44,191 nucleotides of DNA from Bacteroidetes bacterium UBA2234 (GTDB lineage Bacteria > Bacteroidota > Bacteroidia > NS11-12g > UBA955). Positions within the stretch are counted from its first letter, which is position 1; each line of letters begins with the position of its first letter. A program made the position numbers and the translations under genes. Positions 19,169-38,343 of the stretch are shown piece after piece. Below the pieces are notes generated by a model. That model saw only the letters and a program-made list of their open reading frames with translations, made no database searches and was not told where the DNA came from. The stretch spans positions 1-44,191 of the forward strand of contig DDYM01000022.1 in NCBI GenBank assembly GCA_002347985.1, written 5' to 3'.

Positions 19169-21931
19169 ATGTATATTCCGATAAATAAGATTTTCAATTT
19201 CGCTTGTTTGATAATGCTTGTTACGGGTACTTCGGCACAAGTAGAATATGAAGTTCCAGGCAAGTTGGATTACTGTAAGATCAATGAAAATGGGATTTCC
19301 GTTTTACCCAGCGGAAGATTTGTTTCGCCAGTGGGCGAGAAAATTAGAGTGTATAGAGCACCTTATGGTTTGGCGGTAAGCAATAACGGCAAGTTTGCAG
19401 TGGTGTTGCATAGTGGAGCCGTTACGTTGGTTGAAATGTCGGGGGCGTCTACCCAAGTAAATCGTTTTCCAGAATTTGACGGTAAAGGAGTTGATATCAT
19501 TAAAGGGGCATCGTTTGTGGGGGCGAGTTTTTCAGACAATAATCGCGTGGTTTATTTGAGCGGGGGCGACAAAGGGAAAATTTGGATGTTCGATGTGATT
19601 TTAAAAAAGGTGATTGACAGTGTAGATGTGAATCAGTTTCATCCGGAGGCTCCCAAAGAGGCTTTTGTGACGGATATTTTGGTAGACGATATAAACGATG
19701 ACTTATGGGTTTTGGATCGCGCATGGTTTCAGTTGTATCGCATCGGATTAAAGGACAAAAAGTTAAAGGCGATGATTCCCACGGGTAGAATTCCATTTGG
19801 ACTAGCCCTTTCGACTAAGAATCATAAATTGTTGGTTGCCAACGTGGGAATGTATGCTTACCCAGTTGTTCCTGGGGTTAATGAAGTTACTAAGGATTCC
19901 TTTTTGTTGCATTTTCCTGCCTATGGCGCACATACAAAAGAGTCCAATGAAGGGGTTGTAAGAGAGGGTCGATTTATTCCAGGTTTGGGCGATCCCAATG
20001 CGGATGAGTCGATGTCGGTTTGGATTGTCAATACCGAAACAAATACAGTTACGAACAAAATCAAAACCGGCGCTGCGATTGGTGAGTTTATCGAAGATTT
20101 AGAAGTAGTGGGTGGTTCACATCCTAATAGTATCGTTTGTGACGATCGATATGCTTATGTTTCTCAGACAGGGAGCGACGATATTGCTGTGATTGATTTG
20201 AAAAAATCGCGACTCCTAAAATCTTGGCCCATACGCACATCCTCTATTTTGGATAATACCAAAGGTTACATGCCTTATGGGTTGGATATTGACCGCAAAA
20301 ATGGCCGGCTCTATGTTGCCCTTCTGGGTTACAATGCAGTGGCTGCCTTGGATTTGAAGTCGGGGAAAAATTTGGGGATGATTCCGGCGGGTTGGGGTGC
20401 AACGCGAGTGAAATGTAATCCATTAACGCAAGAATTGCTTATCACTTCCGCCAGAGGATATGGTGCAGGTCCCAATGGAGGTGTAGGTTTTAAAGCACCA
20501 CCACAAGGCACATATATTGGTGATATTCAATTGGGGTTGTTACAAAGGGTGGCTATTCCAACGCTCGATGATTTGGCTGTTGGACGCAAATCTACTTTGG
20601 ATTACACCATGAAAACTTTGGTGCGAGATCATGCAATTTCTGCCATTTTTGGACCCAATTCGCCCATCCAACACATCGTTTACATCACAAAAGAAAATCG
20701 TACTTACGACGAAGTTTTTGGTCAGCTCGCCGGCGGTTTGGGCGATTCCAGTTTGAGTCGTTTTGGTGTGAATTGCGAATATACGTTGGAAGGTCAGTTG
20801 AAGATGATTCACAACGATCAGCAGTGGAAGTACAATACGGATTCCCTTCAAAAAGACAGCATTAGACAATTGATGAAAGGGCTGAAGGTGACGCCAAATC
20901 ATCAAAAGATTGCCAAGCAATTTTCGTATTCTGATAATTTTTATTGCGATAGTGATGCATCGATTCACGGACACCATTGGATGTTGGGAACCATGCCCAA
21001 TGAATATGTAGAAACCAATGCGGCCAATGCGGGTGATTTTATGACATTGTCTAAATCGCCTGGACGCAGAATGCCGAGGACCACGGGCGCGATGGACCCT
21101 GAGGATTACAACCAAGTGGGAGGATTTTGGGAAGCCGTCAAACGATCAAAAAAGAGCATTTATAATTTTGGTGAGGCCAATGAATATTCTGGTGTTCGCG
21201 AAGAGTGGTTCGACACATTGAACGGAACGGGGATGTCGGTTGTATTTCCAATGCCAGCAGCCATTTACAACGAAACTTCAAGGAATTACGCGGGGTATAA
21301 TACCAGTATTCCTGATCAATTTAGAGTAGAACAATTTGAAACTGAATTTACAGATAAATGGTTAAAAGGCTGTGATACAATGCCCAATGTCATCACAATA
21401 CAATTGCCAAACGATCATACGAGTCAGCCAAGGCCCAAAGATGGGTATCCCTATGTTCACAGTTATGTGGCCGACAATGATTTGGGTTTGGGTAGAATGT
21501 TGCATTTTTTATCGCATACGCCTTATTGGAAGAATATGTTGGTGATAGTTACCGAGGACGATCCTCAGGGTGGAGTAGATCACATCGATGCGCATCGCAG
21601 TATTTTGATGATGGCAGGTCCCTATGTGAAAAAGGGTTATGTATCGCACACCCATGCCAACTTTGGTTCAATCATTCGTACGATGTATGTCCTGTTGGGG
21701 ATTCCGCCAGTGAATCATTTTGATGCTACAGGAACATTGTTGGCAGATTGGTTTACAACGACTCCCGATTTCACTCCTTATGAATTAATAAAATCTGATC
21801 TCCGGGTATTCAATCCTGACGATGCAATGCAGAAATATAACAGAACGGTTCCGTGGCGTGAAGTGAAAATGTCGTCTCCGCTGGATGAAGAATCAGATCA
21901 AAAAAAGCAATTTTATGAAAATCACAAGTAA
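19169..21931 (+). CDS. Exported beta-propeller / PF04185-type phosphoesterase 1
   Basis: The 920-residue protein has an N-terminal signal sequence (...FACLIMLVTGTSAQ). A YncE/YVTN-like beta-propeller covers about 40-440, with strands such as SHPNSIVCDDRYAYVSQTGSDDIAVID in repeated form. A C-terminal alkaline-phosphatase-fold domain of the phosphoesterase family (acid phosphatase/phospholipase C) follows. Metal-site motifs are KENRTYDEVFG (508-518) and EDDPQGGVDHIDAHR (796-810), with NDHTSQPRP and VADNDLG between them. The fold hydrolyses phosphate, or potentially phosphonate, esters. The start at 19169 gives the signal peptide; a 10-codon ORF from 19152 overlaps it out of frame. It is the first gene of the putative phosphonate locus and overlaps its paralogue by 17 bases. 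Confidence 0.85.
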   Translation: MYIPINKIFNFACLIMLVTGTSAQVEYEVPGKLDYCKINENGISVLPSGRFVSPVGEKIRVYRAPYGLAVSNNGKFAVVLHSGAVTLVEMSGASTQVNRFPEFDGKGVDIIKGASFVGASFSDNNRVVYLSGGDKGKIWMFDVILKKVIDSVDVNQFHPEAPKEAFVTDILVDDINDDLWVLDRAWFQLYRIGLKDKKLKAMIPTGRIPFGLALSTKNHKLLVANVGMYAYPVVPGVNEVTKDSFLLHFPAYGAHTKESNEGVVREGRFIPGLGDPNADESMSVWIVNTETNTVTNKIKTGAAIGEFIEDLEVVGGSHPNSIVCDDRYAYVSQTGSDDIAVIDLKKSRLLKSWPIRTSSILDNTKGYMPYGLDIDRKNGRLYVALLGYNAVAALDLKSGKNLGMIPAGWGATRVKCNPLTQELLITSARGYGAGPNGGVGFKAPPQGTYIGDIQLGLLQRVAIPTLDDLAVGRKSTLDYTMKTLVRDHAISAIFGPNSPIQHIVYITKENRTYDEVFGQLAGGLGDSSLSRFGVNCEYTLEGQLKMIHNDQQWKYNTDSLQKDSIRQLMKGLKVTPNHQKIAKQFSYSDNFYCDSDASIHGHHWMLGTMPNEYVETNAANAGDFMTLSKSPGRRMPRTTGAMDPEDYNQVGGFWEAVKRSKKSIYNFGEANEYSGVREEWFDTLNGTGMSVVFPMPAAIYNETSRNYAGYNTSIPDQFRVEQFETEFTDKWLKGCDTMPNVITIQLPNDHTSQPRPKDGYPYVHSYVADNDLGLGRMLHFLSHTPYWKNMLVIVTEDDPQGGVDHIDAHRSILMMAGPYVKKGYVSHTHANFGSIIRTMYVLLGIPPVNHFDATGTLLADWFTTTPDFTPYELIKSDLRVFNPDDAMQKYNRTVPWREVKMSSPLDEESDQKKQFYENHK

Positions 21932-24338
21932 GAGAATCATTGTATCAACTGTATTTCTATGGGTAACGCTTTCGGCGTTTTCCCAGACAGCGGAATTAAC
22001 CAATGGTTGGAAGTTGAGCCCCTTGGGTCGTAGGATAACGTTGGGGGACCTCCCTATGCACATGGTAATTGATCCATCAGGGAAATTCGCTGTGGTATCG
22101 AATGCGGGTCAGAGCGACCAATCGTTGATGGTGATTGATTTGGCTTCTGAAAAAGTAGTAGACAGTATGCCGGTGAAGATGACATTTTATGGAATGGCCT
22201 TTAACAGATCGGGTACAGAGTTGTACTCATCCGGTGGAAACATGAATTATGTGGGTCATTATGGTTTTAATGAGGGCAAACTAAAATGGATTGATAGCAT
22301 CGGAATAAAAGAGGCTTGGCCAGAGAAAGTATCCCCTACAGGAATGGTGATGGGAGCTGAAAATAAATCCTTGTTTTTTGCAACCAAGGAAGATTCAAAT
22401 TTGTATCAAGTCAATATTGTGAATGGAGCAGTCATGGGTAAGTGGCATCTCCCGTCGGAGGGATATTGTGTGGTAAAAGATAATTTGGGTAGAATATTTG
22501 TCAGTCATTGGGGCGATGAATCAGTGGGTGTTTTCGATACCAAGACATTGAAATGGATTAAGAAAATTCGGGTGGGAGACAATCCGAATGAGATGATTTT
22601 GGATAAAAAACAAAAGCGGTTGTTTGTGGCTTGTGCGGACGATAATACAGTTCATATCGTAAATACCGAGACTTTGGTAGTGGAAGAAGTGTTGAGTGTG
22701 GGTATTTATGAAGCCAAACTTACTGGTAGCGGAACAAATTCATTGGCATTGATGAAAGGGGATAAACTGTTATTGATTGCAAATGCCGACAATAATGCGC
22801 TTGCCGTTTTTGATGTCTCAAAGCGTTTGGAAAGCAAAGGGTTGGGTTTTATACCAACGGGTTGGTATCCTACTCAAGTAAGGGTTGCATTGGGTAAAGT
22901 TTGGGTTTGCAATGGGAAAGGTTTCGCGACTATGCCAAATCCAAAAGGTCCAAATCCAATTGAAAAGAAGACGCAGACGGAGTATCAAAAGGGACAAAAG
23001 GGAAAAGATAAGGTCCAATATATTGGCGGGTTGTTTCGGGGCGGAATGTCGGTTTTTTCGATTTCAGAAATAACAGATGCAAAGAAATTGACTTCACATA
23101 CGCATCAGGTATATTTTAATTCGCCTTACCGGTCAGATGCTGAAAATAGAACTGGCATTCCCGCAAACCATCCCATTCCGAGTAAATTGGGTGATACATC
23201 TCCTATCAAACATGTATTTTATATCATCAAAGAAAATCGTACGTATGATCAAGTATTGGCGGATATGGAAGGTGGCGATGGTGATACAAGTCTTTTGTTA
23301 TTTGGTGCTAACATTACGCCAAATCAGCATAAAATCTGTAAAGAATTTGTTTTACTCGACCATTTTTATGTGGAAGCGGAAGTGAGTGCAGATGGGCACA
23401 ATTGGAGTACCGCTGCTTATGCGAATGACTATAATGAAAAAACATGGCCTACAAGTTATGGTGGTAGGGGTGGAGACTATGTTTATGAAGGGCAATTCTC
23501 GGTTGCACATCCTCAAAAAGGATTTATTTGGGATCATGCATCTCGTGCCGGTATTAGTTATCGAACATACGGTGAATTCGCAGACAATTACAAAGCCAAT
23601 ATCAAATCTTTGCAAGGACATTTTTGTCGTTCCTATACTTCTTGGGACGAGAATGTTCGCGATACCACAAGATTTGGTCAGTGGAAACACGATTTCGATT
23701 CTTTGTTAAATATCGGTCAGGTGCCAAGGTTAAATACATTGCGGTTTATCAACGACCATACCGAGGGGGTTCGCAGGAATCGTCCAACGCCATTTGCTCA
23801 TGTTGCAGACAATGATTTGGCCGTTGGTATGTTTGTCGACTATTTGTCGAAATCTAAAATTTGGGGCAGTAGCGTTGTCTTTATTCTGGAAGATGATGCC
23901 CAAAATGGACCGGATCATATAGACGCACATCGCTCAACAGCTTATGTTGCTGGTGGAATGGTGAAAAGTGGATTTGTAGATCATACACACTATTCAACGA
24001 GTTCAATGTTACGGACTATGGAACTGATTCTGGGAATGTCGCCCATGAGTCAGTATGATGCTTCTGCTGAACCAATGTGGAGATGTTTCCAAGATTCTGC
24101 GGTGCATCCTACATTTGATGCACTTCCAGCATTGGTGGATTTGTCGGAAAAGAATGTAAGCGACAATCGTAAGTCAACTTCGTATTTAATGGATCAAAGT
24201 GAGGGGTTGGATTTGAGCAGAGAGGACAGAGCCAATGAGCAATTGATGAATGAAATGCTTTGGAAGTATGTAAAAGGGGAGTCGTCAATTTTACCGGCCC
24301 CACGTAGGTTGGCATTCTTGAAGCATACTGACAAGTGA
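21915..24338 (+). CDS. Exported beta-propeller / PF04185-type phosphoesterase 2
   Basis: This 807-residue paralogue of the preceding protein has the same architecture: signal peptide (MKITSKRIIVSTVFLWVTLSAFSQ), propeller to about 390, then the phosphoesterase domain with IKENRTYDQVL (K439-E440-N441-R442) and EDDAQNGPDHIDAHR (659-673). It lacks a segment of about 40 residues that copy 1 carries after the first metal motif, so the pocket entrance may differ. The ATG at 21915, inside the end of gene 1, is chosen because the signal peptide begins there; an earlier in-frame start at 21885 adds ten polar residues. The overlap implies translational coupling. A TonB-dependent receptor follows after 12 bases. 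Confidence 0.85.
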   Translation: MKITSKRIIVSTVFLWVTLSAFSQTAELTNGWKLSPLGRRITLGDLPMHMVIDPSGKFAVVSNAGQSDQSLMVIDLASEKVVDSMPVKMTFYGMAFNRSGTELYSSGGNMNYVGHYGFNEGKLKWIDSIGIKEAWPEKVSPTGMVMGAENKSLFFATKEDSNLYQVNIVNGAVMGKWHLPSEGYCVVKDNLGRIFVSHWGDESVGVFDTKTLKWIKKIRVGDNPNEMILDKKQKRLFVACADDNTVHIVNTETLVVEEVLSVGIYEAKLTGSGTNSLALMKGDKLLLIANADNNALAVFDVSKRLESKGLGFIPTGWYPTQVRVALGKVWVCNGKGFATMPNPKGPNPIEKKTQTEYQKGQKGKDKVQYIGGLFRGGMSVFSISEITDAKKLTSHTHQVYFNSPYRSDAENRTGIPANHPIPSKLGDTSPIKHVFYIIKENRTYDQVLADMEGGDGDTSLLLFGANITPNQHKICKEFVLLDHFYVEAEVSADGHNWSTAAYANDYNEKTWPTSYGGRGGDYVYEGQFSVAHPQKGFIWDHASRAGISYRTYGEFADNYKANIKSLQGHFCRSYTSWDENVRDTTRFGQWKHDFDSLLNIGQVPRLNTLRFINDHTEGVRRNRPTPFAHVADNDLAVGMFVDYLSKSKIWGSSVVFILEDDAQNGPDHIDAHRSTAYVAGGMVKSGFVDHTHYSTSSMLRTMELILGMSPMSQYDASAEPMWRCFQDSAVHPTFDALPALVDLSEKNVSDNRKSTSYLMDQSEGLDLSREDRANEQLMNEMLWKYVKGESSILPAPRRLAFLKHTDK

Positions 24339-24350
24339 AAATGTAATTGT

Positions 24351-26306
24351 ATGTCAATTAGAATTCTTGTTTTTATCCTCATTGTAATTTCACCCGCTTG
24401 CAATTTATTGGGCAAGCAATTGGATTCATCCATCACGGATACTCTCCGAATGAATCCTATTCAAGTTGTACAATCCAATCACGCTGCCATTTTGGGATTA
24501 AGAAGTAGAGAGTTGTCTCCAATACCTTCGGCCCAATTGGGTGTTCAAGTTGCGGATCAGTTGGGTGATATTCCTGGAGTTTCTGTTTCGAGTATGGGGC
24601 CTGGAATGACAAGGCCTGTACTTCGTGGGTACTCTGGGTCGAGGGTGGCAGTTTTAGTAGATGGTTTGCGAATGGACAACCAACAATGGCAGGATGAGCA
24701 TGGACTTACAATTGGCCCATTTTCAAATGATAAATTGAGTGTTTATTTAGGGCCATTGGCAATTTTAGCAGGTGGAGATGCCATGGGAGGGCTTGTTCAA
24801 ATAGAAACTGTGATGCCTCAAAAATTGGGTATACAGCAACAAAGTTATCTGCGATGTTTTTCCAATAATTTGGGTGTTCAGGCAGGTTACGAAAGGGAGA
24901 TTGTAAAATCGAATAGAAGCAATTGGTTTGGTATTGTCCTCAATCAGTTTGGAGATTATCACGATGCGAATGGTACCGACGTGTTAAATACGAGAAACGA
25001 TGGTTTTCAGGTAAAGTGGGGTTGTTTTCGAACGAATAATAAGTCGCAAAAATGGATCAATTATCGCTCTTCCTTCACTAGGACAGGTATTTCGCGGGCC
25101 CTGGATTCTTTAGAAAAGTTGGAACTATTAAATGGTGAACCGAGAGATTTTGAGGCGCCGCATCACGCCGTACTTATGCACGCCCTTTCTATCAAGTCTC
25201 GAACCGCGTGTTCCAAGGGTTATTATGAGTTGCAATATGGAATTCAATCAAATACGAGATTAGAGGTTGAAGAGGGCGAAGTTGATGGGTTGGCGATGCA
25301 ATTAAGCACTGCTCAGCAAAGATTTTTCCGATTCATGGAGCTGGGTTCAAAATGGAGATTTTCTATTGTTGAATTGATGTCGTTGCAAAACAATAATAAC
25401 ATGGGTCAGATTCTCGTGATACCTAATTATTTGAGTTTGGATGGCGGACTGCATGGTGTTTTGCAACGAAGTTTTGGTAACATGGAAGGATCGTTCAATT
25501 TGGGTGGCATTACAAAGACGTATCAAACAAAAAATCAGGATATTTCAGGAAGTATCAGACCGATTTGGGGCCTGTCAACATTGTTTCATCACAACAAATT
25601 CAATTCAACAAGATTTGCAATATCCAAGGGCTCTCGAAATCCCAATTTTCATGAATTGTTTGCCAATGGGATGAGTGAAGATGCATTTCGTTTTGATCAT
25701 GGGAATAGTGGTTTGAAACCGGAAAACATAGTAAATTTTGAGATGGGTAATGAATGGAATTTTAAGCGTGTGGAGGGGTATTTGAATTTGTTTTATTCAA
25801 AATGTAGTGGTTATATCGCTTTGTTGCCAACAGGACAATTTCAATTTGGTGCGCCTGAATTCCGTTATGTTGCGCATGATGCAATTTCCAAGGGGATGGA
25901 AGGGTCTATTAATTTCTATAATGAATCTCGGTCTATTCAGATTCAGTTCAATGCATCTTACGTTTCGATTGTGTCCAATGGAACAAACCTTGCTTTCGTT
26001 CCTCCCATGAAACTTGGGAACAAAATAAGAATTCAAATACCAAATCTAAATAGAGGTACACAGATTTATATTTTTGGAGGAACTACCTATTCGAGAGTTT
26101 TGTTTCCAGATGAATACAGTCGCAAAAATGATAGTTATATGTTGGCAGCGGTTGGTATTAATTGTGAATTTCGAAAATGCATATTGCAATTGAATTCTAC
26201 CAATGTCTTGAACCGGTATTACATAGACCCAATGAGCTTATTAAAATTGGTTCCTTATGCAGCGCCTGGACGGTCAATAAATGCATCGGTTAAGTGTGTG
26301 TTTTAA
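24351..26306 (+). CDS. TonB-dependent outer-membrane receptor
   Basis: The 651 residues include a signal sequence, a short periplasmic lead, a plug domain (VADQLGDIPGVSVSS, RPVLRGYSGSRVAVLVDGLRMDN, LSVYLGPLAILAGGDAMGG) and a 22-strand-type barrel ending in the outer-membrane consensus Phe (NASVKCVF). There is no carboxypeptidase-like N-terminal extension, so it belongs to the smaller siderophore/vitamin/metal-type class, not to SusC. It sits 12 bases behind the phosphoesterases, so it probably imports a ligand linked to them; the ligand cannot be deduced. Metal import for the metallophosphoesterases or the iron oxygenase is one option. Confidence 0.88.
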   Translation: MSIRILVFILIVISPACNLLGKQLDSSITDTLRMNPIQVVQSNHAAILGLRSRELSPIPSAQLGVQVADQLGDIPGVSVSSMGPGMTRPVLRGYSGSRVAVLVDGLRMDNQQWQDEHGLTIGPFSNDKLSVYLGPLAILAGGDAMGGLVQIETVMPQKLGIQQQSYLRCFSNNLGVQAGYEREIVKSNRSNWFGIVLNQFGDYHDANGTDVLNTRNDGFQVKWGCFRTNNKSQKWINYRSSFTRTGISRALDSLEKLELLNGEPRDFEAPHHAVLMHALSIKSRTACSKGYYELQYGIQSNTRLEVEEGEVDGLAMQLSTAQQRFFRFMELGSKWRFSIVELMSLQNNNNMGQILVIPNYLSLDGGLHGVLQRSFGNMEGSFNLGGITKTYQTKNQDISGSIRPIWGLSTLFHHNKFNSTRFAISKGSRNPNFHELFANGMSEDAFRFDHGNSGLKPENIVNFEMGNEWNFKRVEGYLNLFYSKCSGYIALLPTGQFQFGAPEFRYVAHDAISKGMEGSINFYNESRSIQIQFNASYVSIVSNGTNLAFVPPMKLGNKIRIQIPNLNRGTQIYIFGGTTYSRVLFPDEYSRKNDSYMLAAVGINCEFRKCILQLNSTNVLNRYYIDPMSLLKLVPYAAPGRSINASVKCVF

Positions 26307-26471
26307 AAATGTTGAAACGGTGTTTCCAAAATATTTCCATAAAATAACTTGTGCATTAGCCGTAATATTCCACTATCAATTTGATAATTTCAGTTATTTT
26401 TTGATAACAAATTGAAGATTTTAAGTTGAATTTGGAGGGTGTTTTTTGTTGCGAAAAATCGACAAAAGACA

Positions 26472-29400: not shown

Positions 29401-29507
29401 GTCACCACGATATCGATTTGGATCAATTCCCTGGTATGACTGGCTATTCTGCATTGCAAACACCTACTCTACGTAGATACGGAATCAACATCAACTTGGT
29501 ATTCTAA
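26472..29507 (+). CDS. SusC/RagA-like TonB-linked outer-membrane transporter
   Basis: From the ATG at 26472 it has 1011 residues: signal peptide (ending AMLFPISVLAQ), then almost directly the SusC plug signature VVVTALGIKKEKKKLGYAVQEI and VLKGPAAAALYGYRGQNGAIVITTKKG, a large barrel, and a terminal Phe (GININLVF). The carboxypeptidase-regulatory-like domain that usually precedes the plug is missing; only about nine residues separate the signal peptide from the plug. It pairs with SusD (29-base gap). The 165 bases in front, after the TonB receptor, are A+T-rich and likely hold a promoter. The substrate is inferred, from its neighbours, to be a phosphorus-containing organic molecule. Confidence 0.95.
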   Translation: MKKRLIQFVKLGSATAVMSAMLFPISVLAQTESDTARVEEVVVTALGIKKEKKKLGYAVQEIQGADLIKAREPNVVNSMVGRVAGLTIGQSAELLGTPAIVLRGSDIKRGQSVLFVVDGIPINSDAYNLGPDDIEKVTVLKGPAAAALYGYRGQNGAIVITTKKGSKRGIQVEVNSSNMVENGFLTIPKVQDQYGPGDHGKYSFVDGKGAGLNDGDYDIWGPKFEGQMIQQYDGLKPWTARGANNLERFLRNGVVSSNNVSIANSSEKMDVRFSYTNMHQQGIVPNTELNSNTFNISNTVRFNDKLRLDANINYNRQATPNINDVNYGPNSLIYNMTIWGGADWDVMADDIRGIWQPGKEGVQSVYAEYQRYHNPWFVAEKWLRGHYKNDVYGYASLNYQLAPSLSLMVRSSITSYDLLRTEKMPFSAHPYGREEGRGDYREDKRAMYESNNEFMLNFDKDVKKTNVHVSAGGNRRDFQYNSSFVTTDYLNVPEVYNFSNSANPVKAYNFTSSMAVNSLYALADVGGKGYNVNLGARMDQLSTMPAGSNSYVYPSASLSFVPTDFMKKNNTLNFLKIRGSYAQVKGGLTSPTIGPAGYPIGYGSAYTSPYDGPSYTNSSVYSTPLLYNGKPSANFTNTVSNSSLKPFQRTNYEAGVEARMFKNRFGIEGTYFIYKDGPGIYQRTVSEATGYTNQLVNGIETQRKGWEVSMNGEIIKPSKKGGLSWNSSANFSRYREFLTKIYGDVDRISSDYFVSNNSSNRFLKVGDRIDALYMGSFARTSDGQLINDAGGRPIVLPKGQQQGYSLPDLVWGFFNKVGYKNVSMSFQFDGRVGGQIVNQIQRQTFRGGRNIETVENNIKDANGLGMGDARYNDYQGTKSWVGEGVVIASGTPKYDPTTGEITNMSELTFAKNTTATYLQDYISRYYGQYEANLMSKSYMKLREVNVTYQMPSKWMGKTFKSATVSLVARNVLYFAKGHHDIDLDQFPGMTGYSALQTPTLRRYGININLVF

Positions 29508-29536
29508 TTAAACGCAAACGATTTAATACAATAAAA

Positions 29537-31126: not shown

Positions 31127-31157
31127 ATTTTGGGTAATAATGTTATAGTAGTAATTA

Positions 31158-31184
31158 GGGGCGGGTTTACTCGCCCCTTTTTTT
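31158..31184 (+). terminator. Hairpin terminator between susD and the PhnZ-like gene
   Basis: GGGGCG (31158-31163) pairs with CGCCCC (31172-31177) around an eight-base loop and is followed by seven T. It ends only 12 bases before the next ATG, so readthrough would set the downstream level unless a separate promoter overlaps it. Confidence 0.8.
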
Positions 31185-31196
31185 AATAAACTGATT

Positions 31197-31751
31197 ATGA
31201 ATGAAGTGATAAAAGAAATTCAAGAGTTGTTTCAAACAAAAGGCTTAAATATGTATGGTGAGGACGTTACGCAAATTGAACATGCTGTACAATGTTATAC
31301 GTTGGCTAGAGAAAACAATGCGAGTTTGGAATTGCGTGTTGCAGCGTTATTGCACGACATTGGTCATTTGGTGTATAACCCTGAAGATGGAGAGCATACG
31401 GATATGAAACATGAAGTGTATGGCGCAGATTTGTTGTTGAAATGGGGCTTTGGTGAAAAAGTTTCTCAATTGGTTGCTTCTCATGTTTGGGCCAAAAGAT
31501 ACCTCGTGTCTAATGAGCCATATTACATTAATCGATTGTCAGCGGCGAGTTTAAAGAGTTTTCAAATGCAAGGTGGTTTGATGTCATCAGAAGAAAGTGC
31601 TGAAATACGGGAAATGCCATTTTTTATAGAATGTTTGAATCTCAGAAGATGGGATGATCAAGGAAAACGATTCGATATCGATTCTGAAATTCCTCAAGAA
31701 GCTTGGGAGGATTTAGAATTGTGTTTACATGTTAACCAATCATTTGGCTGA
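31197..31751 (+). CDS. PhnZ-like HD-domain mixed-valent di-iron phosphonate oxygenase
   Basis: The 184 residues align by eye along nearly their whole length with PhnZ, the enzyme that oxidatively cleaves 1-hydroxy-2-aminoethylphosphonate to glycine and phosphate (TIGR03276-type). All six expected iron ligands are present: H29 (VTQIEH), H53-D54 (LLHDIGH), H72 (KHEVYGAD), H96 (ASHVWAKRYL) and D153 (LRRWDDQGK). The substrate-site Lys100 and the SLKSFQMQGG motif are kept. PhnZ Glu27 corresponds to E22, but the PhnZ Tyr24 position holds Met19 (Tyr is at 20), which may change the substrate gate. No PhnY-type hydroxylase is in the window. Its 3' end overlaps that of the FAD gene by 20 bases on the opposite strand. 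Confidence 0.88.
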   Translation: MNEVIKEIQELFQTKGLNMYGEDVTQIEHAVQCYTLARENNASLELRVAALLHDIGHLVYNPEDGEHTDMKHEVYGADLLLKWGFGEKVSQLVASHVWAKRYLVSNEPYYINRLSAASLKSFQMQGGLMSSEESAEIREMPFFIECLNLRRWDDQGKRFDIDSEIPQEAWEDLELCLHVNQSFG

Positions 31752-32868
31752 TAGTGTCTTCGGCCATGCCAAAGCTGAGGGTCATTCCCGCACCTCCAGG
31801 ACCGTTCGCCACCCAAACCCCGTTTTCAATTTCTTGAATCCATTCGCTACTGTTGTTTTTTAATTTAAGATACTGACCTGTCCATCGTTGCGCCATTTTT
31901 AAATCGGGGATGTCGAAGATCTCATTTAGATAATCCAAAATTAATTGGTCCACACTTTCAATCTGGAACGGGTCGTGATGTAGCCCGTAATCATGTGAAT
32001 CGCCTATGGTCAGTTGGTTTTGATAATTTTGACTCACCAGTAAATGAATGCCATGAAAAAAATGTTTAGGATAGTTGTCCTTAACCCAGTGCTCGTAAAT
32101 TGCCAAAGAGGGTAGTTTGTCGTAACTTTTGTAATGAAGAAAGCTCAGGCCGGCGCATAACGCGGGGATGGTAGCTGTGATTCGCTCGCTGCGGAGCATT
32201 TGTAAGTGGCTGATAGTAATCGGGGAAGTCTTAAAAAAAGATGGATATAAGAGATTTAATTCGTACCCATTACAAATTACGACGATTTCGGCTTCGTAGG
32301 TTTTGTTCATCGCCGTTCGGATTTTATTGGGCATTACTTCAACGACTGCAGTACTAAAATGAAATTTAATGGCTTGTGTTTCAGTTAAAAAATCTGGAAT
32401 TACACGAATTGCTTCCCGAGACTCTACGATTATTTCCGTGCCACTGTAAATAGCGCCCATTGTATTTGATTTGTTAACAATGGAAAGCGCCGCGAGCGTT
32501 TCACTTTTGTCTAAAAGCTGTAATCCTTCTCTGTGGTTTGATTCTCGTTCTAAGAATTCCTTGCCAAGTTCGAACTCCAATGGATTTGAAAGTACTTGAA
32601 AGCTGCCGGTTTTTTTATGCCATATTTTTGCCGATTTGCACAGTTCAATCCAAATGGATCTGCTTTTAATTGCGCGATCATACAAGGTGCCAGCGGGTTG
32701 GCCAATTGGCCAAATCATTCCGAAATTTCTTATTGATGATCCAACGGCCTTCTCTGATTTTTCGAACACATCCACATGATAACCCCTTGCGGCTAGTGTT
32801 TTTGCATAGGCAATGCCCAAAATTCCAGCACCTACTACGATTGCTTTAGGTTGTGATGATATTTTCAT
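31732..32868 (-). CDS. TIGR03364-type FAD-dependent oxidoreductase (PbfD/HpnW-like)
   Basis: This 378-residue D-amino-acid-oxidase-fold (DAO) flavoprotein has the FAD-binding G13-A-G15-I-L-G18 and an acidic end of strand 2 (Glu36). The hallmark of this clade, GSSIRNFGMIWPIGQP, is at residues 43-58. The C-terminal FAD loop is WVANGPGGAGMTLSFGMAE. This group is repeatedly found with phosphonatase-like hydrolases and has been assigned to oxidation of 2-aminoethylphosphonate derivatives such as the N-methylated form, giving phosphonoacetaldehyde. It is the last gene of a tight minus-strand operon; its start lies 23 bases inside the MFS gene. The exact aminophosphonate is not determined by sequence. 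Confidence 0.88.
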   Translation of the reverse strand: MKISSQPKAIVVGAGILGIAYAKTLAARGYHVDVFEKSEKAVGSSIRNFGMIWPIGQPAGTLYDRAIKSRSIWIELCKSAKIWHKKTGSFQVLSNPLEFELGKEFLERESNHREGLQLLDKSETLAALSIVNKSNTMGAIYSGTEIIVESREAIRVIPDFLTETQAIKFHFSTAVVEVMPNKIRTAMNKTYEAEIVVICNGYELNLLYPSFFKTSPITISHLQMLRSERITATIPALCAGLSFLHYKSYDKLPSLAIYEHWVKDNYPKHFFHGIHLLVSQNYQNQLTIGDSHDYGLHHDPFQIESVDQLILDYLNEIFDIPDLKMAQRWTGQYLKLKNNSSEWIQEIENGVWVANGPGGAGMTLSFGMAEDTISQMIG

Positions 32869-34123
32869 TTTTTCGGAGTGATTTGTTTAATTGATAAATT
32901 ACGATTTGAGAAAGCAATAAGATTAGAACACTTCCAACGATGATCAATTTGTTGAATATAGATGCCCAATCTACAGTGTCGTTGTTGCCAAGTAACGCTA
33001 TAGAAGTAATTGTTAATGAAAATAAATAACCAATGGAATCGGCAATGTAAATTAGAAAACTGGAATTGCCTGATATTCCACTCAATCCAATAATTCTATC
33101 CATAACGCTTATGTTGATGAGAATATAACCTAAATAGAGCCCTGCGCCAGACATAATCAATAACGCTTGTAAAGACAGGTACTGTAATTGAAATCCAACG
33201 ACAGAAATCAAAGAAATACATCCACCAATTGAAATACAATAGGCCGTAAGTTTAAGAGATTTGATATGTGATTTTATCAGAGAAAACCCTGGAACAATGC
33301 ACAATAAAAGGAGGGTTACTGGTAGTTCGATTTTTACGAAAGCTTGGGAATTGAAGACCAAATACTGATTCAACATGTCTGCACTGAAATTGTCTCTAAA
33401 ATCCCTGAGAATAGTTAATAGGCCGTAAATAATCACAAAGGGTAAAATCAGATATTGAAGTTCCCCAAGTATTTTCTTTTGTGTTTTTGGGTCTAATGCT
33501 TTTCGCTCTATGCGTAATTCAATATCTTCTCGAGAGGGGCCTGGAAATCTCTCTAACAATATAATAAATACAACGGCAGGGAAAAGCGCAAAGGCACCAG
33601 TAATATATGGAACTTCGTTGATCGATAACTGCAAAGAGGCTTGTAACCAAAGCGCTATTGTTTTGACCCAGCCAGAGGAGAATACAAATGTGCACGCCAA
33701 CATCGCACCGATCAATTCAGTATGTTTTCTTCCTTCAACATATGAAAATACCAATCCCCACACCAATCCAAGGGGAAATCCATTCAAAATCATTAAAAAT
33801 GGCCAAAATTCGATAACAGAAAATCTTAGAATAACCAATGGGACTAGAGACGTGGCCATCAAGCATATCAGGAAAATGCCGCGATAGTCCCTGTTTAATC
33901 CTCCCAAAAATCGAATGCCAACAAATTTGCTAAGTGTATAGCCAATGAGCTGACATAAAACCATCCAAATTTTCACATTGAACCCCCATAGTGTTAAGTC
34001 ATTATAGGTTAACCCAGAGAACGGTTTTCGCAATGCATACATGCATGTATATATTGAAAATGTAAGTCCGCCTAGGGCCAATGAACGCAAAATTTGATTC
34101 CTTCCAATTTCTATTTTCATCAC
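32846..34123 (-). CDS. DUF5690-family MFS-like transporter
   Basis: The 425-residue inner-membrane protein has about 12 hydrophobic helices in two halves with a charged central loop (LERFPGPSREDIELRIERKALDPKTQKK, about 190-215). The start LALGGLTFSIYTCMYALRKPFSG is characteristic of the DUF5690 family, an MFS-fold group whose substrate is, to my knowledge, unassigned. Its ATG overlaps the PHP gene's TGA by four bases, and its end overlaps the FAD gene. This makes it the obvious candidate importer for the aminophosphonate used by that enzyme. The sequence is A+T-rich, as are its operon partners. Confidence 0.85.
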   Translation of the reverse strand: MMKIEIGRNQILRSLALGGLTFSIYTCMYALRKPFSGLTYNDLTLWGFNVKIWMVLCQLIGYTLSKFVGIRFLGGLNRDYRGIFLICLMATSLVPLVILRFSVIEFWPFLMILNGFPLGLVWGLVFSYVEGRKHTELIGAMLACTFVFSSGWVKTIALWLQASLQLSINEVPYITGAFALFPAVVFIILLERFPGPSREDIELRIERKALDPKTQKKILGELQYLILPFVIIYGLLTILRDFRDNFSADMLNQYLVFNSQAFVKIELPVTLLLLCIVPGFSLIKSHIKSLKLTAYCISIGGCISLISVVGFQLQYLSLQALLIMSGAGLYLGYILINISVMDRIIGLSGISGNSSFLIYIADSIGYLFSLTITSIALLGNNDTVDWASIFNKLIIVGSVLILLLSQIVIYQLNKSLRKNENIITT

Positions 34124-34944
34124 AGTTTCATTTTTGTTTTTTCAATGTCTTTTAGTCCGCATTGAGTGAGTAGTTGATGTAAATTGCGATATCCACCGTC
34201 AAGTTCAGATGGGTGATGGGCGTCGCTGTTTATGATGAGTGGAATATTGTTTTGATGAAGCTTAGCGATAAACTCTAGTTTAGGATATGGATTGCTAAGG
34301 CCTTTTTTATACATAGCCCTGGTGTTGATTTCAATAAAATCAAATTGTGATGTTGAATTCAGTGCAATCTGAAATAACTCATCATAGAACCAATTTTCAA
34401 GTTCTAGGAATTCACTCGTTTTTGAGGCGTTTAATATGATTTTGTCAATATGACCTATGATTTTTACGCAACCTATTGGTGTGCTGAGCATTTGTTCTGT
34501 TGCACCGAGAAATGATTGCAGAAGTTTCTTGAGGTCGAAATCGTATGATTTAAGTGCCAATAAAAATTGAGAATACGTCCCGTCAATTTCTAAATACTTC
34601 AACTCATCCGCCTTGGGGTTTGGGACAAAATGTATACTAGTAATGAGGTAGGTTGATTTCTTAATCTCTTCAAATTTTAGAGATGGGAAACCCAATCCAT
34701 CAAGGAAGTCAATTTCGAAACTGGAGTGGATTTTGATTTCCGATTTGTGCATTTCTGCCAACTGATGGATTTCCGAGGTATAATTAGGTAGCTCTGATTC
34801 CTTGATTGACCACTCACAGGGAAATGGAAGTGGTGCATGAGCGCTAAATCCTAGAAAATCCCAACTTAATTGTTTTGCTTTGAGTATGAAATCAGATGGA
34901 TGGGCTGTGCCATCGCAATAGGTTGTGTGTGTATGTAAATTCAC
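34120..34944 (-). CDS. PHP-family phosphoesterase (histidinol-phosphatase-like)
   Basis: The 274 residues have the HisJ/HisK-type PHP layout. H4-x-H6 is followed by YCDG, then FSAHAPLPF, a Glu ligand in HSSFEIDFLDG, IGHIDK, and the terminal metal motif INSDAHHPSE. These supply the usual three-metal site for phosphomonoester hydrolysis. By sequence, histidinol-phosphate phosphatase is the nearest guess. By position, between a HAD paralogue and the DUF5690 transporter with a four-base overlap, it could instead act on a phosphorylated intermediate or sugar phosphate tied to phosphonate use. No his biosynthesis gene is nearby. Confidence 0.8.
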   Translation of the reverse strand: MNLHTHTTYCDGTAHPSDFILKAKQLSWDFLGFSAHAPLPFPCEWSIKESELPNYTSEIHQLAEMHKSEIKIHSSFEIDFLDGLGFPSLKFEEIKKSTYLITSIHFVPNPKADELKYLEIDGTYSQFLLALKSYDFDLKKLLQSFLGATEQMLSTPIGCVKIIGHIDKIILNASKTSEFLELENWFYDELFQIALNSTSQFDFIEINTRAMYKKGLSNPYPKLEFIAKLHQNNIPLIINSDAHHPSELDGGYRNLHQLLTQCGLKDIEKTKMKL

Positions 34945-35020
34945 AAAGGTTTTTATTCAAAAAAAATCACGGTAAGTTGGCTACATATTTCTCGATGATT
35001 AAGGGTAGATTAAAATTTCG

Positions 35021-35773
35021 TCATGATGGTTTTCCCTTTTTAAAGAGATATGTTAATTTCGGTTTTGACTTTTTTGGGGTTGATTGAAAAATACTTTTTA
35101 GGTTTGAAGTTTTGTCAATGAAGTGAGTATGCGGATAGGCCGACCAATCGGTCTCTTCATTTGTAGCCAATAAAATATTCCAATTGCATTGTGCATGATA
35201 AGCCGAAAGCAAAGAGATCTTTGAGTTTCCAATATGTGCGATTTGATTTGGGTCGTAGATGTCTTCTTTTTGGGAAATTTTCTGAATAATGTCTGGAAAC
35301 GGATGAAATCGAGGTACCTCATTGTAACTAATCCAACCATGTAAGTAGTGGGTTAATTCACTGCGTTGGAATATTTCATTCGTTACATAGGAAGGAAGCC
35401 ATGAAACACCTAAAATTCTGCAATTTTCATTTCTTGCAGCGATTAAGAATTCTATCAGATCTTTTGAAATTTGTGAATTGCCCTTTTCGGTGAAGCTCAC
35501 TCGGAACTGCTCAATGATTTCAGTAGCGATTTTCTCGATAACTTTTTGTTGAGGTTCTTTTAGCCAACGCTCACAAACGATTTCAGCAATGTTAAAAATG
35601 GGTTTGCCAATGAGTGCTCGAATGACCCATTTTTCAGTAATTATTCCATTTCTCTTGATGGTTTCATTGATAATGTTTGTGATTTTTTCATTATCGCCAA
35701 TCGCAATTCCAATGGTGTCAACTATGATCAATTTGGGCCATTTGTTATTCACATGTAAATTATTGTTTTTCAC
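35021..35773 (-). CDS. Degenerate phosphonatase-like HAD protein, probably catalytically dead
   Basis: The 250 residues follow the fold order of the intact phosphonatase-like protein at 37648, but the active site has eroded. Motif I reads IIVDTIGIAIGD (residues 16-27): the nucleophile D19 is kept while the AGTT of active relatives becomes IGIA. The cap MGxPK lysine region is IGKPIF. The GRPQPD motif is FHPFPD, with no Arg or Lys. The acidic motif IV GDTxxD is GNSKIS. The frame itself is uninterrupted, so selection seems to maintain a protein. It heads the minus-strand operon (76 bases to PHP) and has a Lys-rich C-terminal tail. A regulatory or scaffolding pseudoenzyme is the best guess. Confidence 0.75.
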   Translation of the reverse strand: MKNNNLHVNNKWPKLIIVDTIGIAIGDNEKITNIINETIKRNGIITEKWVIRALIGKPIFNIAEIVCERWLKEPQQKVIEKIATEIIEQFRVSFTEKGNSQISKDLIEFLIAARNENCRILGVSWLPSYVTNEIFQRSELTHYLHGWISYNEVPRFHPFPDIIQKISQKEDIYDPNQIAHIGNSKISLLSAYHAQCNWNILLATNEETDWSAYPHTHFIDKTSNLKSIFQSTPKKSKPKLTYLFKKGKPS

Positions 35774-36116
35774 GTAAATAAGTTGTTTAGTAGATGTTAA
35801 ATAGCAATAAAAACTCGACGTTTAATATGTGAAAAATGCGGTTAAAGAGATTTTCCAATAATGTTTCGATAATCCGTGCGTTATTGTATGTCGCGAACTA
35901 CTATTACTGTGGAGACAAAATCCTTTTTAAGCAGCATTGTTTCAATAATCTCAATTTACATTTTTTAACGATTATTAAAGTGCTTGCACTAGCCAGATGG
36001 ATAAAAGTAAATCGTGGATATATTGTGGGCGAATTTGTCGTTGAGTAATTTCTATTTCATTGAAAATTAACTCTTTGTAAATATTGGTTTTGTAATGTTG
36101 AACGGGAAATAAAATC
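35774..36116. other. A+T-rich divergent intergenic region
   Basis: These 343 bases lie between the start of the minus-strand operon and the start of the unknown plus-strand gene at 36117, so they should hold both promoters. A 70-codon ORF on the plus strand (35836-36048) shows no protein-like features. I see no strong hairpin, repeat or RNA gene here. Confidence 0.5.
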
Positions 36117-36566
36117 ATGAAAACTGGGTATTACGCAAGTCTGTCGAAAGAACTATTTTCAATCGGTCATTTGGGTTTGGAAGTTTTTGAAGTGCTTCCA
36201 ATCAACACGCCAATTAAAATCCATCAAATCATCATTGTGGAGGAAAGCGGTAGAGAGGTGATTTCAGATGGCGAAGAATTGATCCAATCCAAATATGAAT
36301 TATGGCATTGGCTATCGGATCAATCGAATGTGATTTACTTGGAGTTCTCTCATCCAGGTCAATGTACATGGACTTTTCATCAAGGTCAATTGTCCATTTC
36401 TTGCCGCCATCGTCCCACATTAATCTGGTGGACTGCGGAAATCTTAAAGTTTTATCAATTGGGTAATTTTAAGAATTTTCATCGTCTGTCGCAAAGTGAG
36501 GGTCAGAAATGTCTCTTAATGAGCAAAGACATCCATGAGGCTCTCGGAATGGAGTTGGTTGTTTAA
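36117..36566 (+). CDS. Unknown 149-residue soluble protein
   Basis: No family is recognised. The sequence has no signal peptide or membrane span. It begins MKTGYYASLSKELFSIGHLG and has an aromatic- and His-rich middle (YELWHWLSDQSNVIYLEFSHPGQ, then HRPTLIWWTAEILKFY). Alternating hydrophobic residues between 30 and 100 suggest a beta-rich domain. The last 51 bases overlap, on the opposite strand, the end of the ATP-grasp gene. It lies between the operon and the ATP-grasp/HAD pair of the presumed phosphonate locus, so a partner role there is possible but unproven. The ATG at 36117 follows an A+T-rich leader. Confidence 0.6.
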   Translation: MKTGYYASLSKELFSIGHLGLEVFEVLPINTPIKIHQIIIVEESGREVISDGEELIQSKYELWHWLSDQSNVIYLEFSHPGQCTWTFHQGQLSISCRHRPTLIWWTAEILKFYQLGNFKNFHRLSQSEGQKCLLMSKDIHEALGMELVV

Positions 36567-37478
36567 CTTTTGGCCAATCGATTTCTTTTCGTGATGGTTG
36601 ATTAGTCTTTGGATGAAACTCGAAATGCCAATTTTGTGAATTTTTAGCAAAGCGGGGAACATGCTTTGAGTGGGGTGCAGGTTTGGCATCGTATTGACAT
36701 CCAATACGTAAGGTGTTTCATTGATCATCCGGAAGTCTACCCTAGACATATACTCCAGATTTAGCGTTTTATGAGATTTGATTGCTGCAGATTGAATATT
36801 GTATAGTTCTATCTCAGTGAGATTGGGAGAGAAGTCACGTTTTGTTTTACCCATTGAACTTCCGGCAATAAATACTTGTCTCGCGGGCGTGGGAATGATC
36901 TCTAAAGGAGGTAGTGTTGTAAAATTGTTTCCATCTTCTGTGGGTAATATTGCAACACTAAATTCTCTTCCCAATAAGTAAGGTTGAATTAATTTGCCCT
37001 CAATTTTCCATCGCTGCCAGTGTATTGTAACTTCATTTTTTGGAACGATTTCAATGTCGCGATGACAACCGCCAAGTCGGGGTTTGCTGATATAATATTC
37101 ATGCGTTAAATGCAATGGGCTGTCTAAACTTTTGGGGACATCGATGCCGCTTTCTATGAGTCGTTTCTCAACAGTTAATTTGTCTTGCGCTATGTACTGT
37201 GCGATTCCGTTGCTGCTTAAATGTGGGATGTTGTTTTTATCCAGCCACATTGCAATATCTGCTTGGGAATGTCTTCCAAATCCATAGCACATGTTAAATA
37301 CCCAGTGAAATTGTTGTAAAAGATTGGCCAAAGACGAATTTGGCTCTGTCATGTGCACAATTGAAACATTGTAACTGTCTGGAATTGCCTTGTTAATATG
37401 TAATACCGTATTGAGGTTTATATTTTCCTTCCAAGGCGTGAATTGACTTTCTGCGTAAAGTATAGCTACGTTTTTCAT
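36516..37478 (-). CDS. ATP-grasp ligase related to D-Ala-D-Ala ligase
   Basis: Starting at ATG 37478 the product has 320 residues (an upstream GTG at 37496 adds six that do not fit). The order of motifs is that of the Ddl branch of ATP-grasp enzymes: an N-terminal Rossmann-like part, PHLSSNGIAQYIAQDKLTVEKRLIESGIDVP (ATP-domain entry), YISKPRLGGCHRDIEIV (phosphate-loop Lys), LIQPYLLGREFSVAIL, and the Mg ligands DFRMINETPYVLDVNTMPN. The Ddl-typical YDYxxKY loop is altered. A cell-wall Ddl would normally sit among mur genes. Here, inside a phosphonate-type cluster, it may instead join an amino acid to an amino- or carboxyl-bearing metabolite. That is conjecture. Confidence 0.75.
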   Translation of the reverse strand: MKNVAILYAESQFTPWKENINLNTVLHINKAIPDSYNVSIVHMTEPNSSLANLLQQFHWVFNMCYGFGRHSQADIAMWLDKNNIPHLSSNGIAQYIAQDKLTVEKRLIESGIDVPKSLDSPLHLTHEYYISKPRLGGCHRDIEIVPKNEVTIHWQRWKIEGKLIQPYLLGREFSVAILPTEDGNNFTTLPPLEIIPTPARQVFIAGSSMGKTKRDFSPNLTEIELYNIQSAAIKSHKTLNLEYMSRVDFRMINETPYVLDVNTMPNLHPTQSMFPALLKIHKIGISSFIQRLINHHEKKSIGQKLNNQLHSESLMDVFAH

Positions 37479-37647
37479 GGAGGCGCAATTTCTCACCAGA
37501 AATCTTTCAGTTTGTTACGCGAACTTTACCAATGGTTTGTGAATTTAACACTCGAACATTACCTATATGTGTTAGGATTGTGCGTTGGGAGTTGATATTT
37601 CATCTTGACTTAATATTCAAATATTGTGTTGTACTGAATTTTGCATC

Positions 37648-38343
37648 ATGAATCCTAAACTAATTGTATTGGACATGGCGGGCACTACGGTGAATGACTC
37701 TGGATTGGTTCAACAAGCAGCCATCGACAGTATGAAGGCACTCACGGGCGCTGAGATCGACATGAAAGCAGCGAACAGTGTTATGGGAATTCCCAAGAAA
37801 ATTGCGTTTGAGCAGTTATGCTCTTTGAGTCACGTGTCTGTAAATACTGAAATAATTGAAAAATTGGAAGGGTATTTCAATTCTCAACTCATGGATCAAT
37901 ACGCAACAAAGGGATCAATTTCATTGATGCCTTTCGCCGGTGAATTATTTGAGGCTGTTCGAAAAAATGGCGCCAAATTGTATTTAAATACCGGTTTTAA
38001 TAGGTCTGTGGCTACGGTAATCGTTGAAAACTTAGGACTGAATGAAATATTACATGGCTATATCGGCAGTGATGAAGTTGCCATGGGTAGGCCTCAGCCA
38101 GACATGATACGTTTGGCGATGAAAAGAGAGAAAATTGAATACTCTCATTTTGTTATGAAAGTGGGTGATACAATCAGTGATTTGTACGAAGGTTTTTCGG
38201 CGGGATGTGCTTGGAATATTGGTGTTTTAACAGGAGCCAATACCTACGATGAACTTAAGACCGCTCCGTATTCCCAAATTTTAAATGATTTGCAACCACT
38301 GATTGCTTATTTTCCAAGTGGAAGCAAAATGAGACGATCTTAA
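37648..38343 (+). CDS. Phosphonatase-like HAD hydrolase (PhnX/TIGR03351-type)
   Basis: From ATG 37648 the protein has 231 residues; a TTG at 37624 would add eight unlikely residues. Motif I is D9-M-A11-G-T-T in IVLDMAGTTVND, with Ala two residues after the nucleophile as in phosphonatases instead of the Asp of ordinary HAD phosphatases. A cap lysine (K50, in VMGIPKK) lines up by eye with the Schiff-base Lys of PhnX. Motif II is LNTGFNRS, motif III is in GRPQPD, and motif IV is VGDTISD. It would release phosphate from phosphonoacetaldehyde or a close analogue, the product expected of the FAD enzyme. It stands alone, divergent from the ATP-grasp gene. Confidence 0.87.
   Translation: MNPKLIVLDMAGTTVNDSGLVQQAAIDSMKALTGAEIDMKAANSVMGIPKKIAFEQLCSLSHVSVNTEIIEKLEGYFNSQLMDQYATKGSISLMPFAGELFEAVRKNGAKLYLNTGFNRSVATVIVENLGLNEILHGYIGSDEVAMGRPQPDMIRLAMKREKIEYSHFVMKVGDTISDLYEGFSAGCAWNIGVLTGANTYDELKTAPYSQILNDLQPLIAYFPSGSKMRRS

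Follow-up and report, generated by a model that had tools for sequence, protein, structure and literature searches.

The window analysed here covers positions 1-44191 (44,191 nucleotides) of contig DDYM01000022.1, part of the 2.19-Mb draft genome of the uncultured Bacteroidetes bacterium UBA2234 (74 contigs, 95.4% complete; labelled G000). Between dnaK (16752-18665) and panB (39473-40291), the window carries a gene cluster that combines enzymes of phosphonate catabolism with a SusC/SusD (SusCD) pair and exported phosphoesterases. Its best explanation, which we consider probable, is a phosphonate utilisation locus built in the manner of a polysaccharide utilisation locus (PUL) or of the Pus type of SusCD system. 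The gene families, their key residues, their linkage and their co-occurrence in other genomes are established in this analysis.

On the + strand lie genes for two phosphoesterases (PE1 and PE2), a TonB-dependent receptor, SusC, SusD and an HD-domain oxygenase. A block on the - strand encodes a TIGR03364 oxidase dependent on flavin adenine dinucleotide (FAD), a DUF5690 transporter, a HisJ-type PHP protein and a HAD-family protein (HAD2), and the distal end of the cluster holds a family-less open reading frame (ORF, +), an ATP-grasp protein (-) and a PhnX-like HAD protein (+). The HD and FAD genes are convergent, with overlapping ends. Profile searches of the window's proteins recovered every family that the original prediction had named from the letters alone, each in its place. 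The three phosphonate families that it had put within 7 kb span 7.1 kb (31197-38343), and the two PF04185 phosphoesterases, the TonB receptor and the SusC/SusD pair are indeed contiguous with them. The HisJ-type PHP protein, the Ddl-like ATP-grasp protein, the 149-aa ORF and the degenerate HAD protein are additions to that list.

Enzymes for carbon-phosphorus bond cleavage

The HD gene (31197-31751, + strand) encodes a PhnZ-like mixed-valent di-iron oxygenase that scores 176.8 bits against TIGR03276, below the cut-off of 214.6; a relative in L051, a Mucilaginibacter locus, scores 214.7 bits. When the HD profile is searched against solved structures, the best match is PhnZ (4mlm, E 2e-47), and only PhnZ and TmpB match at E ≤1e-3. 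Residues H29, H53, D54, H72, H96, D153, Y20 and E22 are invariant in 10/10 rows and align with residues of PhnZ, where we take the first six to form the metal site and the last two to belong to the substrate site.

The converging gene (31732-32868, - strand) encodes a predicted FAD-dependent aminophosphonate oxidase of the PbfD type, with a TIGR03364 score of 358.1 bits against a cut-off of 285.1. The PhnX-like gene lies within approximately 5 kb and supplies the phnX neighbour by which PbfD is recognised. According to passages of PMC10590968, PbfD (TIGR03364) enzymes have been proven to oxidise 2-aminoethylphosphonate (AEP) and N-methyl-AEP to phosphonoacetaldehyde, and phnX alone is the commonest companion of pbfD genes outside the pbfD1 group.

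The PhnX-like gene (37624-38343, + strand) encodes a putative phosphonoacetaldehyde hydrolase of the HAD family. The protein is nearer to TIGR03351 (150.8 bits, below the cut-off of 218.9) than to TIGR01422, which represents PhnX proper (83.5 bits; the cut-off of 220 is not reached). Among solved structures its profile best matches phosphonoacetaldehyde hydrolase 1rql (E 7e-26), presumably the B. cereus phosphonatase. The DxAGT motif and K50 (in MGxxK) are invariant in 8/8 rows aligned to 1rql, and we take them to be the nucleophile motif and the Schiff-base lysine of phosphonatase. Judged by these residues, the window's HAD protein is a putative functional equivalent of PhnX, though by family score it stands outside PhnX proper.

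The second HAD gene, HAD2 (35021-35773, - strand), is a degenerate phosphonatase-like paralogue. Its MGxPK position has no lysine and its acidic GDxxSD motif is lost; the aspartate nucleophile is retained in G000 and in the relative G007 and is gone in G009 and G002. The loss of catalytic motifs rules out HAD2 as a second phosphonatase and makes it a probable pseudoenzyme. Conservation is also lower for HAD2 than for the PhnX-like gene (60% versus 83% identity in G007), and HAD2 was seen in 4/12 relatives and at 1/80 loci of the wider survey described below.

Enzymes of the PhnZ type require a 1-hydroxylated aminophosphonate. The window's own genome (95% complete) yields no match to the PhyH family of hydroxylases (PF05721) and no PhnW above its cut-off, which fits a route that begins with PbfD. 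With no PhyH-family hydroxylase in evidence, headgroups that are naturally hydroxylated are the probable substrate of the HD enzyme. According to a title cited in PMC4642753, a bacterial sphingophosphonolipid has a headgroup of this kind. The original prediction had drawn a single line from FAD oxidation to cleavage by HAD or HD. Cytosolic cleavage of the carbon-phosphorus (C-P) bond by these two enzymes stands as the best end point, given their structure matches to phosphonatase and PhnZ, but the single line becomes two branches: PbfD would feed phosphonoacetaldehyde to the PhnX-like enzyme, as it does to PhnX in published work, and the PhnZ-type branch would run in parallel, with a hydroxylated aminophosphonate as its substrate.

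Components for uptake and ester hydrolysis

The SusC-like TonB-dependent porin (26439-29507, + strand; PF07715) and the SusD-like surface lipoprotein (29537-31126, + strand; PF12771, 219 bits; FQAC lipobox read by eye) are encoded by adjacent genes, as in PULs and Pus systems. Upstream lies a separate TonB-dependent receptor (24351-26306, + strand) with plug and barrel domains (PF07715, PF00593). This receptor is 59% identical in G007 and 23-33% identical over partial stretches in other relatives where it was seen, and the receptors of G001, G004 and G030 are nearer to that of G045 (34-36%) than to the window's. The TonB slot is kept while its occupant differs, which by sequence comparison we read as a receptor swap in an otherwise stable cluster.

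Two PF04185 enzymes supply the exported hydrolases typical of PUL and Pus systems, their export and location being read by eye. PE1 (19169-21931, + strand) joins a beta-propeller to a PF04185 phosphoesterase domain (28.8 bits; cut-off 23) and is probably periplasmic. PE2 (21885-24338, + strand) is a second such protein, with a YncE-like propeller and a PF04185 score of 37.1 bits. Both profiles align with acid phosphatase 2d1g over a short stretch, that of PE1 matching propellers besides and that of PE2 YncE (3vgz). The structure model of PE1 is weak (mean predicted confidence, pLDDT, 63.6), and the 50 fold matches shown are, by title, propeller proteins or complexes containing such proteins, with no phosphatase among them; the assignment of its catalytic domain thus draws on PF04185 and the partial 2d1g match. 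Because both signal peptides are plain and have no lipobox, the periplasm is the likelier location of PE1 and PE2, which would place their action after uptake. The proposal that ester hydrolysis precedes SusCD uptake is therefore not borne out.

DUF5690 (32846-34123, - strand; PF18943, 327 bits) is a transporter of the major facilitator superfamily (MFS). Its sole sequence match in the PDB at E ≤1 is SLC37A4 (E 0.018). In its structure model (pLDDT 89), SLC37A4 and SLC37A2 top both fold rankings, with other MFS carriers close behind. R32 is invariant in 32/32 rows and aligned, within this weak sequence match, with an Arg-Lys pair of SLC37A4; an arginine in helix 1 is, we assume, the phosphate-binding residue of antiporters that exchange organophosphate for inorganic phosphate (Pi). 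By its sequence match and its model DUF5690 appears to resemble these organophosphate:Pi antiporters, among which the AEP permease AepP belongs, and the suggestion that it serves inner-membrane uptake gains fold support. A family devoted to phosphonates alone is ruled out, since 15/20 further DUF5690 places have no HD, FAD or PhnX-like gene nearby; at six (L202, L205, L209, L213, L214 and L219) the neighbours scanned include no phosphonate family. In 9/20 of these places (L203-L208, L210, L212 and L216) DUF5690 has a PHP/HisJ-type gene nearby, also where phosphonate genes are lacking. No paper in the open-access literature searched names DUF5690.

Conservation of the linkage

Of 58 related genomes, the window's own included, 13 carry the FAD gene, and exactly these 13 carry SusD. 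All 12 of the other FAD-holding relatives have SusD and HD clustered with FAD (12/12). The SusCD/phosphoesterase block and the phosphonate block, whose separation in related genomes the original prediction had named as one refutation, are neighbours in those genomes. SusC adjoins SusD in the 10 loci that reach it, the contigs of G005 and G006 ending inside SusD. One or both phosphoesterases were seen in 8/12 relatives and the PhnX-like gene likewise in 8/12; the other loci break off too early, those of G001 and G030 within the gene for the TonB receptor and those of G005 and G006 within SusD, ahead of the phosphoesterases. In G045, from another family of the order, a single strand carries SusC-SusD-PE1-TonB-HD-PhnX-like-DUF5690-FAD-PE2, and the gaps in this nine-gene array range from overlap to 72 bp at most (longest-frame starts). 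Compared with G007, the ratio of non-synonymous to synonymous substitution rates is 0.02-0.06 where computable; synonymous sites are saturated for most genes, and otherwise non-synonymous differences are well below synonymous ones (a PE1 row for L037, mismatched to PE2, was disregarded).

In a wider survey, GTDB species genomes were scanned with the FAD alignment and the best 80 loci kept, with flanks of up to 10 kb. By record title these include Mucilaginibacter, Pedobacter, Chitinophagaceae, Saprospiraceae and Cyclobacteriaceae; 6/80 repeat relatives already counted and 7/80 recur in the class sample below. DUF5690 is present at 75 of the 80 loci, the PhnX-like gene at 66, HD at 62, SusD at 59, SusC at 58, a TonB receptor at 14 and PHP at 7. 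One contig of 3.3 kb (L112), filed under a metagenome-assembled genome of Comamonas, carries a DUF5690-FAD-HD-PhnX-like core and is perhaps misbinned Bacteroidota DNA.

In a class sample of 396 genomes, which are related and not independent, FAD relatives (called at E ≤1e-30) occur in 42, DUF5690 in 61 and HD in 40; 41/42 of the FAD genomes carry DUF5690 and 29/42 carry HD. For 40 of the 42 FAD loci (G000 and G045 were left out), SusC and SusD were counted at ≥150 bits within approximately 10 kb. Both lie near FAD at 20/40 loci, and at 15/26 among the best FAD matches. At 26/40 there is a phosphoesterase that matches one of four query types. A comparison with panB as a control covers 20 genomes: SusC+SusD occur near FAD in 15/20 and near panB in 0/20 (Fisher p 7.7e-7, a guide only, as the genomes are related), and the corresponding values for the phosphoesterases are 17/20 and 0/20.

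A search with SusD in 29 of 30 chosen genomes places the best match in or just beside a phosphonate cluster in 19/29 and elsewhere in 10/29, by coordinate arithmetic; the cluster counted for Pseudarcicella (L119) is its second, and the FAD gene there is more distant. This cluster, from Pseudarcicella hirudinis, comprises SusCD, HD, DUF5690 and PhnX-like genes with an FAD oxidase of only 27% identity. In a tree of 89 SusD rows (quick method, midpoint root), the FAD-linked SusDs form two separate lineages, with 8 rows in one and the rest in the main clade; L027 is labelled unlinked, although the adjoining stretch, L028, holds its FAD gene. The two lineages suggest that SusCD was linked with a similar catabolic core on at least two occasions. 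The SusCD-phosphonate linkage is frequent and repeated, and it is not universal.

Proposed route and its alternatives

The substrates, the order of steps, the direction of transport and the regulation of the locus are what we infer from its genes. SusCD, aided by the second TonB receptor, would bring a phosphonate ester, or a headgroup or oligomer that bears phosphonate, through the outer membrane. Periplasmic PF04185 enzymes, or phosphodiesterases of the PF01663 type in other lineages, would then free a small aminophosphonate, which DUF5690, as an MFS carrier of the organophosphate:Pi-antiporter type, would carry to the cytosol. There PbfD would oxidise AEP or N-methyl-AEP to phosphonoacetaldehyde, and the PhnX-like HAD protein would hydrolyse this to acetaldehyde and phosphate. 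In the parallel branch, the PhnZ-like HD oxygenase would cleave a hydroxylated aminophosphonate such as (R)-1-hydroxy-2-aminoethylphosphonate.

A bolder joint reading is tentative and, taken as a whole, falls somewhat short of probable. On this reading an outer-membrane system reserved for phosphonates would be widespread in Bacteroidota, with the locus as one example. SusCD would import phosphonate esters (pieces of phosphonolipid or phosphonoglycan, for example), propeller-type phosphoesterases in the periplasm would strip them, and DUF5690 would be the aminophosphonate:Pi antiporter so far missing. PhnZ-type oxygenases would need no hydroxylase and would act on headgroups that are hydroxylated by nature, and two different SusCD lineages would each have been combined with a similar catabolic core.

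Signals of regulation point both ways on the coupling between the parts. A GC-rich, terminator-like hairpin followed by a T run (31157-31178, + strand; 9 pairs, 7 of them GC) lies between SusD and HD. It recurs in 9/9 gaps folded from the window's own family, the window among them, with differing stem sequences and the T run read by eye. A scan of the region returned 11 terminator-like sites where 16.5 were expected and 71 promoter-like sites where 60.8 were expected, neither above chance; the hairpin is singled out only because it recurs across relatives. It may attenuate transcription and not stop it. A shared regulatory motif was sought and discarded, as upstream alignments are uninformative beyond a near-identical stretch in G000 and G007. 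The compact array of G045 would suit co-regulation, yet the hairpin follows SusD and the upstream alignments hold no motif. Elsewhere, in Mucilaginibacter (L051, 7338-7922) among others and at 15/40 class-sample loci, the phosphonate core has an XRE-cupin regulator nearby; no such gene was seen in the window's cluster.

Several observations weigh against a dedicated phosphonate locus. The HD and PhnX-like proteins of the window score below the curated cut-offs of TIGR03276 and TIGR03351. The SLC37A4 match of DUF5690 is weak in sequence, MFS folds are common, and most further DUF5690 places lie apart from phosphonate genes. PE1-like and PE2-like genes are in the minority at the loci surveyed (13 and 17 of 80; 7 and 3 of 40). 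Half of the class-sample FAD loci (20/40) have no SusC+SusD within approximately 10 kb, some of them owing to contig ends, so the catabolic core also exists without SusCD. The main SusD clade also holds SusDs unlinked to phosphonate genes, same-clade SusCDs are located elsewhere without such genes, and in the window the hairpin parts SusD from HD, which speaks against tight coupling.

One alternative, which we regard as unlikely, is that the locus serves general scavenging of organic phosphorus in the Pus manner. SusCD and the phosphoesterases would then handle ordinary phosphodiesters from lipid headgroups or nucleic acids, free AEP would enter through other porins, and the phosphonate genes would share only the neighbourhood and perhaps a low-phosphate signal. 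The PF04185 and PF01663 families are broad and not specific for phosphonates, which suits this explanation, as do the hairpin, the catabolic cores without SusCD and the same-clade SusCDs without phosphonate genes. PusCD with phosphodiesterases has been described, in the parts of PMC8115612 drawn on here. Against scavenging stand the repeated linkage of two SusD lineages to a similar C-P core, the identical presence pattern of FAD and SusD in the relatives, and the single compact array of nine genes, which together surpass what a shared low-phosphate response needs. It is improbable that the locus serves nitrogen or carbon supply, or turnover of the cell's own phosphonolipid, in place of outside phosphorus supply. 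Passages of PMC10590968 have oxidative deamination yield ammonia or methylamine, passages of PMC8316502 have AEP usable as a nitrogen source in Pseudomonas, and the XRE-cupin regulator beside the locus in other lineages is not of the Pho type; an outer-membrane SusCD importer, in turn, speaks for an outside substrate. Chance neighbourhood or faulty assembly might be suspected in a draft of 74 contigs, but the same arrangement in other assemblies and the empty panB control (0/20) reduce this to a negligible prospect, refuted by synteny.

The locus is real and widespread, its parts are of known kinds, and their assembly is largely undescribed. SusCD complexes are known mostly for sugars. PULs and the sialic acid system NanOU resemble the window in joining a SusCD-like importer to dedicated enzymes, with NanOU, in the part of its description drawn on, serving a small molecule; the window instead has phosphoesterases and C-P enzymes, and none of its cluster genes scanned matched a carbohydrate-active enzyme family. 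PhnY-PhnZ and TmpA-TmpB are oxidative pathways that, as we understand them, use an HD oxygenase of the PhnZ type, like the window's HD protein with its metal-site residues, and differ in that no PhyH-family hydroxylase was found in the window's genome.

A close precedent is the PusCD of Flavobacterium, like the window a SusCD-like pair with phosphoesterases. According to passages of PMC8115612, PusCD systems are induced by phosphate depletion and are said to co-localise with phosphonate-degrading enzymes. The idea is therefore not wholly new, and the earlier claim that a SusCD pair feeding aminophosphonate breakdown was undescribed holds only in part: "phosphonate-degrading enzymes" beside PusCD were mentioned in 2020, whereas the open-access literature searched yielded no description of a defined core. 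The main text of that source contains no words beginning with "phn" or "FAD", which leaves the phosphonate genes of PusCD unspecified there. The present cluster differs in having the aminophosphonate core and DUF5690 inside it, in occurring in other Bacteroidota families (by record title) and in being known from genes alone. The PbfD-PhnX pathway shares with the window a TIGR03364 oxidase beside a PhnX-type hydrolase and the lack of PhnW, but the passages of PMC10590968 include no SusCD importer or exported phosphoesterases, and the window's HAD protein scores nearer TIGR03351 than TIGR01422. AepP is an inner-membrane carrier of the organophosphate:Pi-antiporter type near AEP genes, as is predicted for DUF5690; AepP is 27.75% identical to GlpT (passages of PMC8316502), whereas DUF5690 is only distantly related to SLC37A4. 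In searches of the open-access literature, with subscription journals and preprints outside their scope, no paper among those listed describes the locus, nor its defined core (SusCD, a PF04185 or PF01663 phosphoesterase, HD, PhnX-like, DUF5690 and PbfD), its spread or the DUF5690 prediction.

Bacteroidota apparently have no ABC transporters for small molecules, according to a passage of PMC8812569. A SusCD system tied to C-P cleavage, if true, would explain how these bacteria reach phosphonates, would give DUF5690 a testable function and would reveal a phosphorus route that can be overlooked when genes are annotated one at a time. In six Pedobacter genomes, passages of PMC4642753 record no other known organophosphonate pathway, save phosphonoacetate hydrolase in one species; Pedobacter genomes of the wider survey, which may differ from those six, carry the locus (L054, L061 and L088, for example).

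Two further genes of the cluster appear accessory. The PHP/HisJ-type phosphatase (34120-34944, - strand) scores 98.6 bits on TIGR01856 against 90.2, and the D-Ala-D-Ala-ligase-type ATP-grasp ligase (36516-37496, - strand; PF07478, PF02655) is present at 2/80 wider loci. Between them lies the conserved family-less ORF (36117-36566, + strand; 149 aa), which has no Pfam match and is 87% identical in G007. Neither a tRNA nor an Rfam family reaching its gathering threshold was found in the window. Beyond panB, genes for a lycopene cyclase and a beta-carotene 15,15'-dioxygenase adjoin at 42063-44104, a pair that suggests retinal synthesis.

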